NCBI RefSeq assembly: GCF_036345255.1
Contig: NZ_CP107783.1
Coordinates: forward strand, 4,885,501-4,949,500
Origin: Streptomyces sp. NBC_00569
GTDB lineage: Bacteria; Actinomycetota; Actinomycetes; Streptomycetales; Streptomycetaceae
Direction: 5' to 3'
Length of the DNA: 64,000 nt
Shown here: positions 28,215 through 35,233 of the stretch, piece after piece
Layout of the letters: every line of letters begins with the position of its first letter
Numbering within the stretch: position 1 is the first letter of the stretch
Notes under the pieces: generated by a model
The model's input: only the letters and a program-made list of their open reading frames with translations
The model's database searches: none
What the model was told of the DNA's origin: nothing
Position numbers and translations under genes: made by a program

Positions 28215-29983
28215 CTAAAGTAATCGATGTCGCCACGACCTGCGAAACGGCAGGAAAGTGGAGCAACGACATCGGGGTGTAGCGCAGCTTGGCAGCGCGC
28301 TTCGTTCGGGACGAAGAGGTCGTGGGTTCAAATCCCGCCACCCCGACAGCTGAAACACCAGGTCAGACCCCCTGCACTCGCTTGAGTGCAGGGGGTCTTT
28401 CTGCTTATGCGGGCATGCCGGGGAGAAGATCTTGGAATTTCTCTCCTGGACGGACCCTTGAGGACGCGCCCTCGACCGCTCCCGCAAGAGCGCGTCAAGC
28501 ACCCCCACCGGAGACGTGTCGGACATCGCCAGCCGAGCATCGAGCGAGGCTTCCCACTCCGCCGTGAGGTTGGCGAGCAAGTCGTGCCGCATCTCGCGGG
28601 TGATGTGCGTGTACCGCGCCTGCACCGAGCCGTCCATGTGGCCGAGGCGCTCATCCATGAGCTTCGTCGGCGTGCGGAATCCCTCCGTGCGCGTCTTATG
28701 CGTGTGCCGCAACCCGTGAGGCGTCAGCCCCTTCGCAACCGGCACCCAGCACGCATCCGCCCGCCCGGTCGCTCCTCTCCCCCGCGCCGGCACACCCGGC
28801 CACGGATCGGCCAACACCGGAACGGGCCGGGCCTCCTGCGGTGCCTTCTTCGGGTACCAGCCCGAAGCAGCGGGCGTGAAGAGCCAGGTGGCAAGCCCGT
28901 TCCTACGCCAGTGCGCGGCCTGGTCCACGGCACCGCCCCCGCGGCTGAAGCCGAGGACTTCAATCGCCTCCCGGACCCGGCCCCTTGTCGCTTCCGCCAC
29001 CGCGTCAGGCCTGTTGAGGACGTTGGACACGGTGCCGGTGGAGACGCCGGCGCGCCGCGCTACGTCCACCAGCTTCGCCCCGGTCTCCCCGGTGCGAGAG
29101 ACGCCCTGCTCCCGAAAGACGTACGTCTTGCCGTGGCACGGGCAGGACGTCGGTTGAGTACGGGCAATGTGTCCCGACCACAGACGCGTGAGCCAGGGCG
29201 GGGCATCAACGGTGCGGTAGCTGTCGTCCTTGGGCGGGCAGCGCTCGAAGAAGCCCGAGTCGAGTTCGTAGAGCTGCCACTCCACGCGCAGGGCTGCCGG
29301 CCGAAGGAACTCGGTCTCCAGACCCACCAGTTGGCCCCATCGCATGCCTGTGTAGCCCTTGGTGACAACAGCGACGAATTCATCGTCACGGCCGGAGAGG
29401 AGAGAGGCGCGCTCAGCCGAGAGAAGTACGCCCAACGGGTCGGTGATCACCTTCTCTGGGCCCCGGTCTCGTGAGCGGCCGGCGCGCTTGCCTCGTCCGC
29501 GGCGCTTCGTTGCCGGGTTGTCGTCCCGGAGCCCTTCGTCCACCGCGTCTTCAAAGAGGAGATGGAGGGTGCCGCGCCACGTCTTCACGCTGGACGCTGC
29601 GTACAGAGTCCGTTCCTTCTTGTCCCAGGCCTCGACGTCAGCGCGCTGAATCGACGCGATCGTTCGGTCCTCGAATTCGGGGAGCAGGTGCTCCTCGAGG
29701 TGGCGCCGATAGTTCTGCATCGTGGACGCGGCCAAGTCCTGCTCCGCGTACCAGCGTGAGGCGTAGGCGCCGAAGGTGACTTGACCGGCCGATGGGGCCT
29801 TCCAACTACCCGAACGAGCCTTGCCCTCTTCCGCGTCCGCAGCGCGCTTGGCCTCTCGCTTGGTACGGAATCGGATCGTGTTCCCGTCCTTGTCTGCGAC
29901 GGTGCCGTACTTGCCTCGGGTCGGGCACCCGTGTGTGTCCGAGGTTCGGATTTCTGCGTCACCGCGTCACGTGCGTCATTCAC
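28215..29983 (-). CDS. Tyrosine integrase with an internal LacI-type HTH; probable 5' frameshift
   Basis: Numbered from a TTG at 29735, the core-binding domain is at 1-90 and catalytic residues are Arg132 (GYTGMRWG), Lys169 (CPPKDDSYRT), His340/Arg343 (TPHGLRHTHK), His366 and Tyr375 (QARYTH). Between the Lys and His-x-x-Arg motifs, residues 221-262 (KLVDVARRAGVSTGTVSNVL and onward) form a LacI-family helix-turn-helix. The frame continues upstream to 29966 with arm-domain-like sequence (GKYGTVADKDGNTIRFRTKRE) but has no ATG, GTG or TTG there. An ATG at 29983 lies in another frame, so one indel near 29915-29935 would restore a start. The last 50 residues (GWRDLNPRPLRPE) are tRNA antisense. Confidence 0.8.
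28273..28346 (+). tRNA. tRNA-Pro (anticodon CGG)
   Basis: All four arms fold. The acceptor is CGGGGTG with CACCCCG, the D stem GCGC with GCGC, the anticodon stem CTTCG with CGAAG and the T stem GTGGG with CCCGC. The seven-base loop TTCGGGA gives anticodon CGG, and the T loop is TTCAAAT. CCA is not encoded. The gene is intact, and its 3' half from 28305 is the integration target. Confidence 0.95.
28305..28348 (+). repeat. attL core: 44-bp direct repeat within tRNA-Pro
   Basis: Bases 28305-28348, from the anticodon loop to two bases past the discriminator, recur exactly at 33785-33828. This is the usual core of an actinobacterial tRNA-targeted integrase. Flanking bases differ on both sides. 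Confidence 0.93.
28365..28398. terminator. Terminator after tRNA-Pro and before the integrase 3' end
   Basis: AGACCCCCTGCACTC at 28365-28379 pairs perfectly with GAGTGCAGGGGGTCT at 28384-28398 (loop GCTT), followed by TTT on the plus strand. It ends the tRNA transcript and lies inside the integrase 3' read-through frame. Confidence 0.85.
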
Positions 29984-30077
29984 GCCACTGACCTGCGGGA
30001 ATGCGTGACGGAGTCGAGGTGGGGGTGCGTCACTGCCGCGTCACCTGTGTCACTGGGGCGTGACGCAGGTGACGCAG
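29956..30077. repeat. Cluster of GCGTCAC/GTGACGC heptamers
   Basis: Copies or near-copies of GCGTCAC occur at 29956, 29964, 29974 (final T), about 30030 and 30039. Inverse forms (GCGTGAC, GTGACGC) lie near 30003, 30058 and 30069. The cluster spans the integrase 5' end and the region before it. It could be an iteron or regulator array, or what is left of Val-Thr-rich coding sequence from a replication gene. Confidence 0.4.
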
Positions 30078-30258
30078 CGTCTTCCTACCCAGGAAAAAGA
30101 GGGGGTGGTGTCTGTTGTTGTGCGCGGCTCAGGACGTGAAGAAGGAGTCCGCTGCGCGGCACGTCCTTGGGGCGGTGCTGCGCACCGAACAGCAAGAGGA
30201 GCACCTACCCGCGTGCGGCGCCGGGTGCTCGTCTTGCTGTTGTGCGGTGACCTCGTGG

Positions 30259-30507
30259 TCAGAACGCAGCTTCCTGCTGCGGCCCGGGTGCCGGCGCGAG
30301 CTCGGTCAGTTCGATGTAGCGGGCCTCGCGGGTGCGTCCCCAGTCGACGTTCAGGCCGCGGGCGGCGAGGGTGGGCTGCAGGCGCTTGAGTCGGCCGGAG
30401 AGGACCTTGCCGGTAGTCGGCCACCTCTTGGGCAGGGGACGGCAGTCGCTCCGGTGATGCACCTCACACACCTCACCTGTCGCTCGCGTACAACCCTTTC
30501 GCTTCAT
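30259..30507 (-). pseudogene. Fragment resembling the C-terminus of a plasmid/AICE replication protein
   Basis: The frame reads LPKRWPTTGKVLSGRLKRLQ, then PTLAARGLNVDWGRTREARYIELT. This is the type of C-terminal winged-helix end I recognise from DNA primase or DUF3631-like replication proteins of Streptomyces elements. The upstream part of such a protein (hundreds of residues) is missing, and the sequence past 30259 in other frames does not resume it. The identification is from memory of the family and is tentative. Confidence 0.4.
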
Positions 30508-30607: not shown

Positions 30608-31534
30608 ATGTCCCAGCACTCCCGCAAAAAGTTGACGTCCGGCAAGAAGGTGACCCTGGGCGCCAGCGCACTGGCCGCCTCCGGGCTCGCCGTCGGCCTG
30701 CTCGTCACACCGTCCGCGATGGCCGGCGGGACCGGCGCGGCTGAGGCGCAGGAGCAGAGCAAGGCCGCGGCCGCCGACGCGTCGGCGGCGAAGGCCGCCG
30801 CGCCCAAGCCCAGGTCCCTGGCCGCGAGCACTGCCGACTCCACCGTCGTCTCCGGCGTCACCGTCAACGGCGGCAACAGCGCCCAGGTCGGGACGACGAA
30901 CACGCAGACGATCACCGTGAAGTGGACGCTTAACGGCGGCTCGAAGCTCTACGGCAGCAACGCGTCGCTCTGGCGCGGCACCGACACCGACAGCGGAATG
31001 AAGCAGTGGTTGAACTCCGAGCAGTTCAACGCGGACACCGACCCCTGCGTTCAGTCCGGCGACGCCACGTACAGCTGCACGGCCACCTACAAGATCGACC
31101 CCCAGACCTACCTGACGAACGAGGATGCCGGAGCCTGGAAGATCTCCCTCTGGGCGGTCACCGACACGGGCGACGTGAACACCGACAACGCCATGACCTG
31201 GTACCTCAAGCGCTGGTCCCGGCTGAGCAACAACGCGGCCCCCGAGCCCGTCGCCAAGGGCAAGACGATCACGATCACCGGCAAGCTGGAACGCGCCAAC
31301 TGGGACACCCACAAGTACGCGGGCTACACCCAGCAGACCGTCCGCCTCCAGGAGCGTTCGCTGACCGGCTCGTACGCCACCACCAGCAGCCACATCACCG
31401 GCACCGGCAGCCTGGCGGGCGTCGAGAAGCAGACTCGCACCGCCACCACCGACCGCTGCTACCGCTACAAGTTCGAGGGCACCTCCACCACGCCGCCGGT
31501 CACCGCCACCGGTGACTGCGTGGACGTGCGGTGA
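30608..31534 (+). CDS. Secreted protein of unknown function, element cargo
   Basis: The 308-residue protein begins with a signal peptide (twin-basic start, hydrophobic core TLGASALAASGLAVGLLV, likely cleavage after SAMA). An Ala/Lys-rich linker reaches residue 75. Two beta-rich segments follow. The second has the KGKTITITGKLERANWD pattern common in Ig-like or carbohydrate-binding modules of Streptomyces exported proteins. Two Cys pairs could form disulfides. I do not recognise the family. GC bias is normal, so this cargo gene looks intact. Confidence 0.75.
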   Translation: MSQHSRKKLTSGKKVTLGASALAASGLAVGLLVTPSAMAGGTGAAEAQEQSKAAAADASAAKAAAPKPRSLAASTADSTVVSGVTVNGGNSAQVGTTNTQTITVKWTLNGGSKLYGSNASLWRGTDTDSGMKQWLNSEQFNADTDPCVQSGDATYSCTATYKIDPQTYLTNEDAGAWKISLWAVTDTGDVNTDNAMTWYLKRWSRLSNNAAPEPVAKGKTITITGKLERANWDTHKYAGYTQQTVRLQERSLTGSYATTSSHITGTGSLAGVEKQTRTATTDRCYRYKFEGTSTTPPVTATGDCVDVR

Positions 31535-31890: not shown

Positions 31891-31943
31891 CGGTGGGTGT
31901 GGGATTTGAACCCACGGTGACTCGCGCCACGACGGTTTTCAAG
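31891..31943 (-). repeat. 3' half of a tRNA-Ser (anticodon TGA): att relic or translocated fragment
   Basis: The minus strand reads CTTGAAA (anticodon loop, TGA), the 3' anticodon stem ACCGT, a long variable arm, T arm GTGGG-TTCAAAT-CCCAC, acceptor ACCCACC and discriminator G. The 5' side of the anticodon stem does not pair (GCGAT instead of ACGGT) and no D arm follows. Only the 3' half is present, starting in the anticodon loop, which is exactly the part used as att core by tRNA-targeted integrases. Confidence 0.8.
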
Positions 31944-32030
31944 ATCGCTCCCGGGCTGGACTCGCCCATTTACTCCGTCGATCACGTGGATGGTTCGGAC
32001 TCCGCCGTCGGCAGCGTCGACCAAGACAGA

Positions 32031-33356
32031 TCAAGGACCAGTCATCGCCTTGATCGTGTACGGGTACGACTCTTGCTGCCACGTGGTCGTGAACACGGCC
32101 GTCGGACGCGCTGCGACCTGTGGCACGCGGCCGTCCGTCGTGAGCGTCTTCGCGCTGCCGAAGGTGCCGGAGCGGCTGATCAGCCGGGCGGTGGCCTTCG
32201 TGACGCTGTACGGCGGCGTGGAGATGGCCGTGGTGGTCTGCGACACCAGCATGCCGTCGCCGTCGTCGTCCAGGGCGAGGTCGGGGCGGTCGCCCGCGCC
32301 CAGCGACGTGATGGCGCCGAGGGTGCCGCCAGCGGAGAGTTTGCGGCCGTACTGCTCGCGCTTGCCAGCGTTGTTGCGTACCCACACGATCATCGAGTCG
32401 CCGTCCAGGTCCGTCCCGAGGGTGTGGTGGACGTCCACGTTCTCCGTGGATGTCGAGATACGCAGCGGGTTCGACAGCGTGCCGGTGTGGCTCCAGCGCG
32501 AGGCCCAGACCTGCGAGCGGTCGCCGCCGCCGGAACGGTAGCTGATCACCGCGTCGCCGTCCCGGTCCACGCCGACCCGAACCATGCCGAAGCCGCCGTA
32601 CGCCGCGATCGGCGTGGTGAGCACCTTCGCCGCGGAGATCGAGGTCGCGGTCATCCGCTTGGCCACCACCTCGGAGCCGCGCACCCAGGCGACGACGAAC
32701 TGACCAGTGCGGTCCACGCCGATGGCTGGCGGCTCCGCCGAGCCCGAGCCGAGTGTGTGCACCGCTCCAAGCGTGCCGTCGAGCTTCAGTCGACGGGCCA
32801 CCGCGTACCAACTGCCGTCGCGGATCTCCGTCCACGCCACCATCGAGCTGCCGCCGGGCGTCACGGCGACCGAGGGTGTGGTTGCGGGCGACCCGGGGGT
32901 GGAGAGCATCTGCAGCGAGCCGACGAGGCTGCCGGAGGACGCGACCCGGCGGCCGACGACGGTGCTGTCCTGCTGCCACACCACCGACGAGTCGCCGGTG
33001 TCATCGGAGTCGGCCTGCACCCAGCTGATGGCGCGGCCGTCCGGGGACAGGGTGCGGGTCGCACCCAGGGTGCCGTTTGCGTACTTCACACGGGTCTGTA
33101 CGCGGAAGTAGGAGCTGTTCGCATTGTCCATGGCCGCCCAGGCGAGCAGCGCATCGCCGGAGCGGTCGATGGAGACCTGGGGGTCGTCCTGGCCGGACCA
33201 GCCGGACGCGGTGACATTCCACGTGGACGTCCACGCGGCGTCGGCGTTCACTCCGAGCGTCGCGGTGAGCGCGATTCCGGCCACGGTCGCCACGGCGCCT
33301 GCGCCGATGAGGCGGCGCTTTGTCGAACGCCGGTGACGTGCTGCCTGAGGTGCCAC
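32031..33356 (-). CDS. Secreted beta-propeller-like repeat protein, element cargo
   Basis: The GTG at 33356, preceded by GAAGGGA, gives 441 residues. A signal peptide (RRLIGAGAVATVAGIALTAT) leads into repeats of about 50 residues with the theme D-x-SGDALLAWA or DGDxMIVWVR, followed by strands ending in an RxxxxGTLGAxxxL motif. I count about seven such units, which suggests a beta-propeller or related all-beta secreted fold. No catalytic motif is seen. The start chosen discards 52 upstream codons that look non-coding. Confidence 0.75.
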   Translation of the reverse strand: MAPQAARHRRSTKRRLIGAGAVATVAGIALTATLGVNADAAWTSTWNVTASGWSGQDDPQVSIDRSGDALLAWAAMDNANSSYFRVQTRVKYANGTLGATRTLSPDGRAISWVQADSDDTGDSSVVWQQDSTVVGRRVASSGSLVGSLQMLSTPGSPATTPSVAVTPGGSSMVAWTEIRDGSWYAVARRLKLDGTLGAVHTLGSGSAEPPAIGVDRTGQFVVAWVRGSEVVAKRMTATSISAAKVLTTPIAAYGGFGMVRVGVDRDGDAVISYRSGGGDRSQVWASRWSHTGTLSNPLRISTSTENVDVHHTLGTDLDGDSMIVWVRNNAGKREQYGRKLSAGGTLGAITSLGAGDRPDLALDDDGDGMLVSQTTTAISTPPYSVTKATARLISRSGTFGSAKTLTTDGRVPQVAARPTAVFTTTWQQESYPYTIKAMTGP

Positions 33357-33512
33357 TCTTGTATCCCTTCCAGGGCCGCCATGGACTCCACGGCAACGAG
33401 GCTGTCCCATACGACTGCTCAGTAGGTACAGCGGGATTGTGTGCGCATACGTCACACGAGCAACACAGGTCCCCTGCCTGATGACCTCAGTACCTGTAGC
33501 CGGGCCAATCAC

Positions 33513-33554: not shown

Positions 33555-33655
33555 CCGTGTCCGGGCCCCCGGCCCGGCCAGGGTTCACGGATAAATGCTC
33601 GCCGCATGCGGTGTCATGGGCCCCGTGGCACAACCTCGGAGCGGGCGCATCGAGG

Positions 33656-33694
33656 GCGCTGGGAGAAACCTGGGAGAAGATCTTCTCCCAGCGC
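33656..33694. promoter_or_regulatory. 22-bp perfect palindrome inside a larger inverted repeat next to attR
   Basis: CTGGGAGAAG-AT-CTTCTCCCAG at 33670-33691 is a perfect palindrome. A further copy of GCGCTGGGAGAA at 33656-33667 is the exact inverse of 33683-33694. The site lies about 90 bases inside attR, where arm-type integrase or excision-factor sites are expected. A regulator operator is the alternative. Confidence 0.55.
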
Positions 33695-33784: not shown

Positions 33785-33828
33785 TTCGGGACGAAGAGGT
33801 CGTGGGTTCAAATCCCGCCACCCCGACA
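33785..33828 (+). repeat. attR core: 44-bp copy of the tRNA-Pro 3' half
   Basis: The copy is identical to 28305-28348. The 5' half of the tRNA is absent here (TTATTCGGG precedes), so it is not a functional gene. It marks the right junction of the 5.5-kb element. Confidence 0.92.
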
Positions 33829-33833
33829 CAGTT

Positions 33834-33869
33834 CAGAGGCCCAATCGGTTGATCGCGATTGGGCCTCTG
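33834..33869. terminator. Terminator to the right of attR
   Basis: CAGAGGCCCAATCG at 33834-33847 pairs perfectly with CGATTGGGCCTCTG at 33856-33869. It probably ended the tRNA-Pro transcript before the 5.5-kb element inserted. Confidence 0.8.
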
Positions 33870-33930
33870 TCGTGCTTGGGGCCGAAGACGGCCCAAAGGA
33901 TTCTGATCAGGCCTCGTGAGCGGTCGGCTC

Positions 33931-34125
33931 TCAGGTCTCGTGAGCGGTCGGCTCGCGTCGCTGGGCAAAGATCTCGTCCATGGCCGCAGGTCCGGCCTTC
34001 TTCACGATGGCTTTGACGTCACGCCGGAGGTTCGCCGCGTCGAGCGGCTCGCCACTGCGGGTCGTGAAGTCGCGGCCGGCTGGGCGCAACGCGGTGTGCG
34101 CTCCCGGCGCCGGCCGGGCCCGCAC
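33931..34125 (-). pseudogene. Tyrosine integrase fragment
   Basis: The frame contains RDFTTRSGEPLDAANLRRDV then KAIVKKAG. This matches the (L/V)FTTxxGxPxxxxNxxRxF...xxAG segment found just before the HxxR box in tyrosine integrases. The HxxR box and Tyr are missing: after KKAG the frame runs AAMDEIFAQRREPTAHET and stops. Nothing convincing precedes it. It is best read as a remnant of a second integrase. Confidence 0.5.
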
Positions 34126-35143: not shown

Positions 35144-35178
35144 AATCCCGCCGCCACCCCGACAGCTGAAACACCAGG
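35144..35178 (+). repeat. Third partial att-like copy
   Basis: AATCCCGCC at 35144-35152 is followed by GCC, then ACCCCGACAGCTGAAACACCAGG. The 26 bases 35153-35178 match 28337-28362 exactly, that is the tRNA acceptor end plus 14 bases of the flank right of attL. This flank is absent from attR, so the copy cannot come from simple slippage of the attR repeat. Confidence 0.75.
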
Positions 35179-35233
35179 GCGGAGGCGCGCCCAACCCCTG
35201 GGCGGTCAGTTGGCCGCCTGTTTTACTTCGCGC

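Follow-up and report, generated by a model that had tools for sequence, protein, structure and literature searches.

Truncated integrase and decayed element at tRNA-Pro(CGG)

The window, a 64,000-nucleotide stretch of the Streptomyces sp. NBC_00569 genome (contig NZ_CP107783.1, positions 4,885,501 to 4,949,500), contains on its minus strand an ORF of 506 aa at 28215-29735, which opens with TTG as the first available start. In the frame of this ORF, Pfam PF00356 (LacI) matches aa 222-264 with E = 3e-14 (53 bits against a cut-off of 27), and the LacI-type helix-turn-helix (HTH) lies at 28944-29072 on the minus strand. The HTH follows the catalytic Lys (PPKDD) and precedes the HxxR box, and all six catalytic residues (R, K, H, R, H, Y) are retained, as the first-pass annotation had proposed in placing a LacI-type HTH between these two catalytic elements. 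Including its linkers, the inserted stretch has approximate ends at 28920 and 29114 (minus strand) and no counterpart in insert-free relatives.

Above or near the cut-off, the Pfam scan of the ORF returned the LacI HTH and integrase domains only, the integrase matches being weaker than LacI. PHROGs gave an integrase match (2.3e-24) and a separate DNA-binding match spanning the HTH. The sequence match of the insert to the CytR headpiece (2l8n) has an E of 9e-7, and the R and K of tyrosine recombinases are present in 92 of 92 aligned rows. The Pfam scan found no ligand-binding domain of LacI regulators in the window protein, and no hinge helix is conserved after the HTH in the family. The window protein has a PF00356 domain and is not a LacI-family transcription regulator.

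The recombinase had also been called otherwise standard, which does not hold for the window copy, N-terminally truncated within a decayed element. Homology to the integrase family (core-binding and catalytic domains, with the first ~19 codons absent) covers 28461-29915 on the minus strand, from the family end as seen in P0001 and P0002 to the homology limit at 29915/29916. In 65 of the 80 named loci of intact relatives, the nucleotide alignment with the window breaks off at 29915 or 29916. The alignment with one of them, L083, restarts 13 bases on in the window and about 550 bases on in L083, as L083 9460-9507 aligns to window 29929-29976 and int homology resumes at 29915. Because the homology gap is 13 bases in one and about 550 in the other, the window copy, by alignment to L083 as reference, lacks ~0.55 kb that hold xis together with the first ~19 codons of int. 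The deletion scar is 29916-29928, where L083 and L087 hold xis and the int start.

No in-frame ATG, GTG, TTG or CTG occurs between the stop adjoining 29966 and the TTG at 29735, and 29983, previously given as the end of the gene, is a GTG belonging to a different frame. A complete N-terminal arm-binding part with a start codon is lacking in the window copy. P0001, which is 98% identical to the window copy and comes from a source whose longest contig is only 3600 bases, begins at the next ATG after TTG 29735. At the other end, the final ~80 residues of the ORF are a read-through tail past the usual family end (P0002 ends in RSRARP) and include the antisense of the tRNA-Pro gene; a similar tail is found in two relatives, P0083 and P0113.

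The element around the window integrase is a decayed actinomycete integrative and conjugative element (AICE) of 5.5 kb, located at tRNA-Pro(CGG). The integration site is this tRNA gene at 28273-28347 on the plus strand (ARAGORN; Rfam RF00005). A 44-nt att copy at 28305-28348 (plus strand) overlaps the 3′ end of the tRNA gene, and is directly repeated with 100% identity at 33785-33828 (plus strand), the distal end of the element; the chance expectation for the last 24 nt of the repeat is 0. A 3′ remnant of a gene, probably rep, occupies 30058-30447 on the minus strand (blastn 69-75% to L083 and L087); both relatives carry this gene ahead of xis-int. ORF 30259-30507 within this region aligns over 58 aa (71%) with the end of an L083 frame of 743 aa, and a Pfam scan of this rep-like remnant ORF gave no match. 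A possible arm-type repeat close to the far att, at 33647-33684 (plus strand), resembles the int-side repeat 28418-28433 and is identical in 25 of 25 nt to the corresponding region of L082.

An intact relative, L080, carries in order DUF2637, a weak FtsK match (below cut-off), DUF3631, an HTH_17 protein (xis-like) and int, which is a typical AICE gene set. When its xis, rep, tra and spd were searched against the whole window by tblastn at E ≤ 0.01, nothing was found. The window element is classed as a decayed AICE because xis and the int start are missing and those four L080 genes were not found. Instead of the full AICE set of int, xis, rep and tra between att repeats, it retains the att repeats, the int body and the probable rep remnant, and so has the truncated integrase and cargo between direct repeats that mark an AICE remnant. 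Decayed AICEs with a truncated integrase are described in Streptomyces in the available part of PMC9513070.

Two further ORFs within the element, 30608-31534 (plus strand) and 32031-33512 (minus strand), look secreted by eye and may be cargo; no Pfam family exceeds its cut-off in either. The stretch 31897-31955 (minus strand) looks by eye like the 3′ part of a tRNA-Ser, possibly an att scrap of another element, and no tRNA is called there by ARAGORN or at the Rfam gathering threshold. Another decayed element, distinct from the first, is probably placed in tandem to the right of the second att, since 33829-33920 resembles the tRNA-Pro-adjacent DNA of L224, L241, L242 and L246 (GGGGGCC repeats, GATTCTGATCA). 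On the same side, the short ORF 33931-34125 (minus strand) is integrase-fragment-like by eye with no Pfam match. A third, partial att-like copy at 35151-35186 has 28-36 nt matches to the att regions of 13 relatives. Finally, 36212-36500 matches at 82-86% the DNA ~7-8 kb upstream of int in L117, L137, L145 and L153, possibly as shared cargo.

Distribution, insertion point and predicted fold

A search through 5.8 billion proteins scored 7990 candidates, of which 1070 were relatives. PF00356 is present in all of the best 120 of the 1070. A relative at E ≤ 1e-60 occurs in 48 of 199 genomes of the genus, the window's own genome counted, and the 80 named loci that were fetched are all from Streptomyces but one (Streptantibioticus), so the earlier belief that other Streptomyces have similar proteins was correct. 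A frame of at least 480 codons is open in 79 of these 80 loci. A second search found LacI-bearing members also in Kitasatospora, Nocardiopsis, Streptomonospora, Saccharopolyspora, Actinoplanes, Catellatospora, Saccharothrix, Lentzea, Embleya and others. The integrase, that of a mobile element, occurs widely among soil actinobacteria. The tRNA-Pro 3′ end was found near 65 of the 80 LacI-type named loci, and the full tRNA-Pro(CGG) in 25 of 35 relatives' loci scanned. Phages or plasmids as carriers were rejected, as at E ≤ 1e-20 no carrier appeared among phage records and only 2 among 72,556 plasmid records.

The span from YVF to HWRR is 68-73 residues with the LacI-type insert against about 9-29 in most rows without it; L054, L065 and L066, which also lack the insert, are misaligned at this place and were judged by eye. 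The insertion point is identical in all aligned rows, across genera. Insert-free relatives occur in other families of the class, and also appeared in the second protein search.

An AlphaFold2 model of an intact relative, P0002 (pLDDT 89.3), contains a three-helix LacI headpiece (helices at 301-308, 312-320 and 327-340) on two low-confidence linkers (293-296 and 346-348, pLDDT below 50). In this predicted structure the segment does form an HTH, the outcome on which the first-pass annotation had made its proposal depend. By Foldseek, the model matches lambda Int (6.5e-9), PurR (46 columns, rmsd 1.4, E 0.028) and CcpA (46 columns, rmsd 1.0, E 0.033). The core-binding and catalytic fold was found on the relative P0002, by its lambda and Tn1549 Int matches. 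The model of an insert-free relative shares this fold; a short loop occupies its insertion point, and no HTH is present.

Just before the insert there is a CxCH motif, and the residues concerned are C277, C279, H280 and C408 in P0002. As a zinc site (CxCH plus the C of ACW) it was rejected, because the first two Cys are kept in 88 and 89 of 92 rows but the His in 71 and the last Cys in 57. A metal site at these four residues is possible, judged from the alignment.

Gain and loss of the insert were followed on a tree of 69 of the 92 alignment rows (47 with the insert and 22 without), built with the insert columns omitted after close duplicates were thinned and short and very distant rows dropped. 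On this tree the trait changes at least 4 times, at least 3 of which are forced by starred branches. A single origin as one clade without loss was rejected (p 7e-41, on a quick tree with long branches). P0127 has no insert, though it lies inside a starred LacI-bearing clade, and P0203, P0207 and P0212 have a degenerate form of it. The HTHs of Nocardiopsis-type integrases are about equally close to LacI regulators and to Streptomyces-type integrases. The insert may have been gained early and then cleanly lost, or it may have been gained repeatedly at one loop.

Constraint on the insert and search for its DNA target

The pN/pS ratio is 0.246 for the HTH, 0.377 for the C-terminal linker, and 0.106-0.184 for the other regions (79 of the 80 loci; 2133 of 3081 pairs, those at 80-97% identity). 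By this measure of sequence divergence, the insert is under purifying selection, slightly relaxed relative to the enzyme parts.

The DNA-reading positions of LacI proteins are 17, 18 and 22 of LacI. At these three specificity positions, 49 of the 59 LacI-bearing integrases in the non-redundant set have T-G-N, as do 74 of the 80 in the close set. For comparison, LacI regulators of the window's own genome have 13 different triplets among the 15 stretches, out of 24, with a readable LacI motif. Within the domain, variability at surface positions rises to 2-3 bits, whereas the specificity residues belong to the most conserved positions; the stretch following the HTH is highly variable. Eight LacI regulators recruited by HTH similarity have mostly V/L-G-N. 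Because these regulators close to the insert already carry such residues, the donor group may have been G-N from the start, and part of the T-G-N conservation may be inheritance.

Two candidate sites were examined as the DNA target of the headpiece, and both failed. The first was a ~10-bp block (GAAACAC and similar) between the tRNA core and CAGGTCAG, which at first tracked the insert, including in L051, L169, L170 and L171. Against it, L172 and L173 have the insert without the block, L174 has the spacer without the insert, and the block also occurs at tRNA-Pro sites resembling other elements (L221, L223, L227, L229 and L236). Insert-free relatives use the same site type (L063, tRNA-Pro), with CAGGTCAG and GGGAG repeats as well, so the insert is not required for recombination at tRNA genes.

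The second candidate came from a dyad search in 39 non-redundant upstream regions among 79, which a non-palindromic single site would escape. The strongest dyads were the palindrome GCCGGTT-N5-AACCGGC and coding-sequence repeats. The palindrome precedes an XRE-type gene (one example scanned, L102) at 45 of 79 loci; the other 34 have the same insert but lack the palindrome. Allowing up to 2 mismatches, it was found in none of 8 insert-free loci and none of 2 further insert-bearing loci. It was rejected as an operator of the LacI headpiece because it occurs at those 45 loci only, before the XRE-type gene.

Possible roles of the headpiece

The best explanation is that the headpiece is an accessory DNA contact of the integrase, at or beside att DNA, for which we estimate a probability of about one half. 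In this model a LacI-type headpiece of about 45 residues is plugged on two flexible linkers into a catalytic-domain loop, and each integrase protomer would read extra DNA at or beside the attachment site. The extra contact might steady the synaptic complex or help choose between integration and excision, akin to arm-binding domains. The headpiece would bind as a tethered single unit rather than as a repressor dimer, because it has no LacI hinge helix and no sugar-binding domain. The constancy of the insert beside varying upstream regulators makes att DNA the likelier target. The estimate stays at one half because no site was found and relatives lacking the insert recombine at tRNA genes too. 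Of the second DNA contact that had been proposed, the idea stands as the best reading, backed by the frozen DNA-reading residues, and the contacted DNA was not found among the candidates tried.

A broader proposal, tentative and somewhat doubtful, is that repeated gain or loss of a LacI headpiece at one catalytic-domain loop has provided a class of actinobacterial integrases with a third DNA-reading module beside the arm- and core-binding domains, which would read a sequence common to the elements and set site choice or the direction of recombination.

The insert could instead be a passenger, a folded module kept by inheritance or stability and with no present DNA-reading role. Insert-free relatives are widespread, and the trait comes and goes with a degenerate form among its states, yet the pN/pS of the HTH is only slightly above that of the catalytic parts and the specificity residues vary least in a domain with variable surface positions. 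We regard this as unlikely.

Repression of the integrase's own promoter, also suggested earlier, is unsupported by the upstream regions. According to this idea the integrase would use its headpiece to repress its own xis-int operon, and integrase copy number would then set excision. LacI headpieces are repressor domains, of the type that repressors of sugar genes use. Self-repression of an integrase by att binding has a precedent in KplE1 IntS (PMC2951348, available part). However, the palindrome among the strongest upstream dyads precedes the XRE-type gene and is lacking in 34 of 79 loci with the insert, and xis-int of L080 comes directly after rep, making the idea quite improbable.

There is little chance that the headpiece binds a partner site elsewhere, in host DNA or another element copy, and controls accretion or immunity at the same tRNA; tandem relics do lie at the window tRNA-Pro and other element kinds share the site, but no sequence evidence points to a distinct target. 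That a sequencing or assembly error joined two genes is practically excluded, because the architecture recurs among relatives with an open frame and an identical insertion point across genera.

With the AICE tyrosine integrases in the available part of PMC3218068, the present family has in common the catalytic residues and integration at tRNA 3′ ends. Intact relatives likewise have xis just upstream of int, and L080 has rep (DUF3631) and an FtsK-type tra. The LacI-type catalytic-domain insert of the present family is absent from the integrase descriptions in that part, where the sole mention of LacI is a 'transcriptional regulator LacI' coloured in Frankia AICEs in the Figure 7 legend. The integrases of Tn1549 (6en2) and lambda (1z1b) are without a LacI-type domain. 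A catalytic-domain segment of Tn1549 Int is said to shape DNA in the available part of PMC8138268, and is a precedent for useful inserts; that part also sorts tyrosine recombinases into classes and refers to further insertions in the catalytic domain. The LacI/PurR/CytR/CcpA type of headpiece matches the insert structurally over 46 residues (rmsd 1.0-1.4), whereas the integrase headpiece has no hinge helix and no effector domain and sits within an enzyme. LacI does not occur in the main text of PMC8138268 or in PMC9513070. No paper describing the LacI insert was found in the open-licence literature, and the role of the extra domain in integrases appears unstudied.

Integrases are central to mobile elements and to genome-engineering tools. 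A naturally pluggable DNA reader in the catalytic domain that close relatives either carry or lack would make it easy to compare what an extra DNA contact does; if the headpiece reads DNA, it would also be a natural template for integrases whose site choice is altered.

Most named relatives in the best-120 listing bear the NCBI name 'LacI family DNA-binding transcriptional regulator', which is misleading in view of the LacI HTH and integrase domains alone found by Pfam in the window protein and the lack of a conserved hinge helix in the family. Many publicly annotated LacI-family regulators are integrases, and the counts of both are distorted. The window's own genome has a second, partial LacI-bearing integrase at C1:8377989-8378660 (L002, L190), 69-70% identical and with HGLHH replacing HGLRH, which is a relic.
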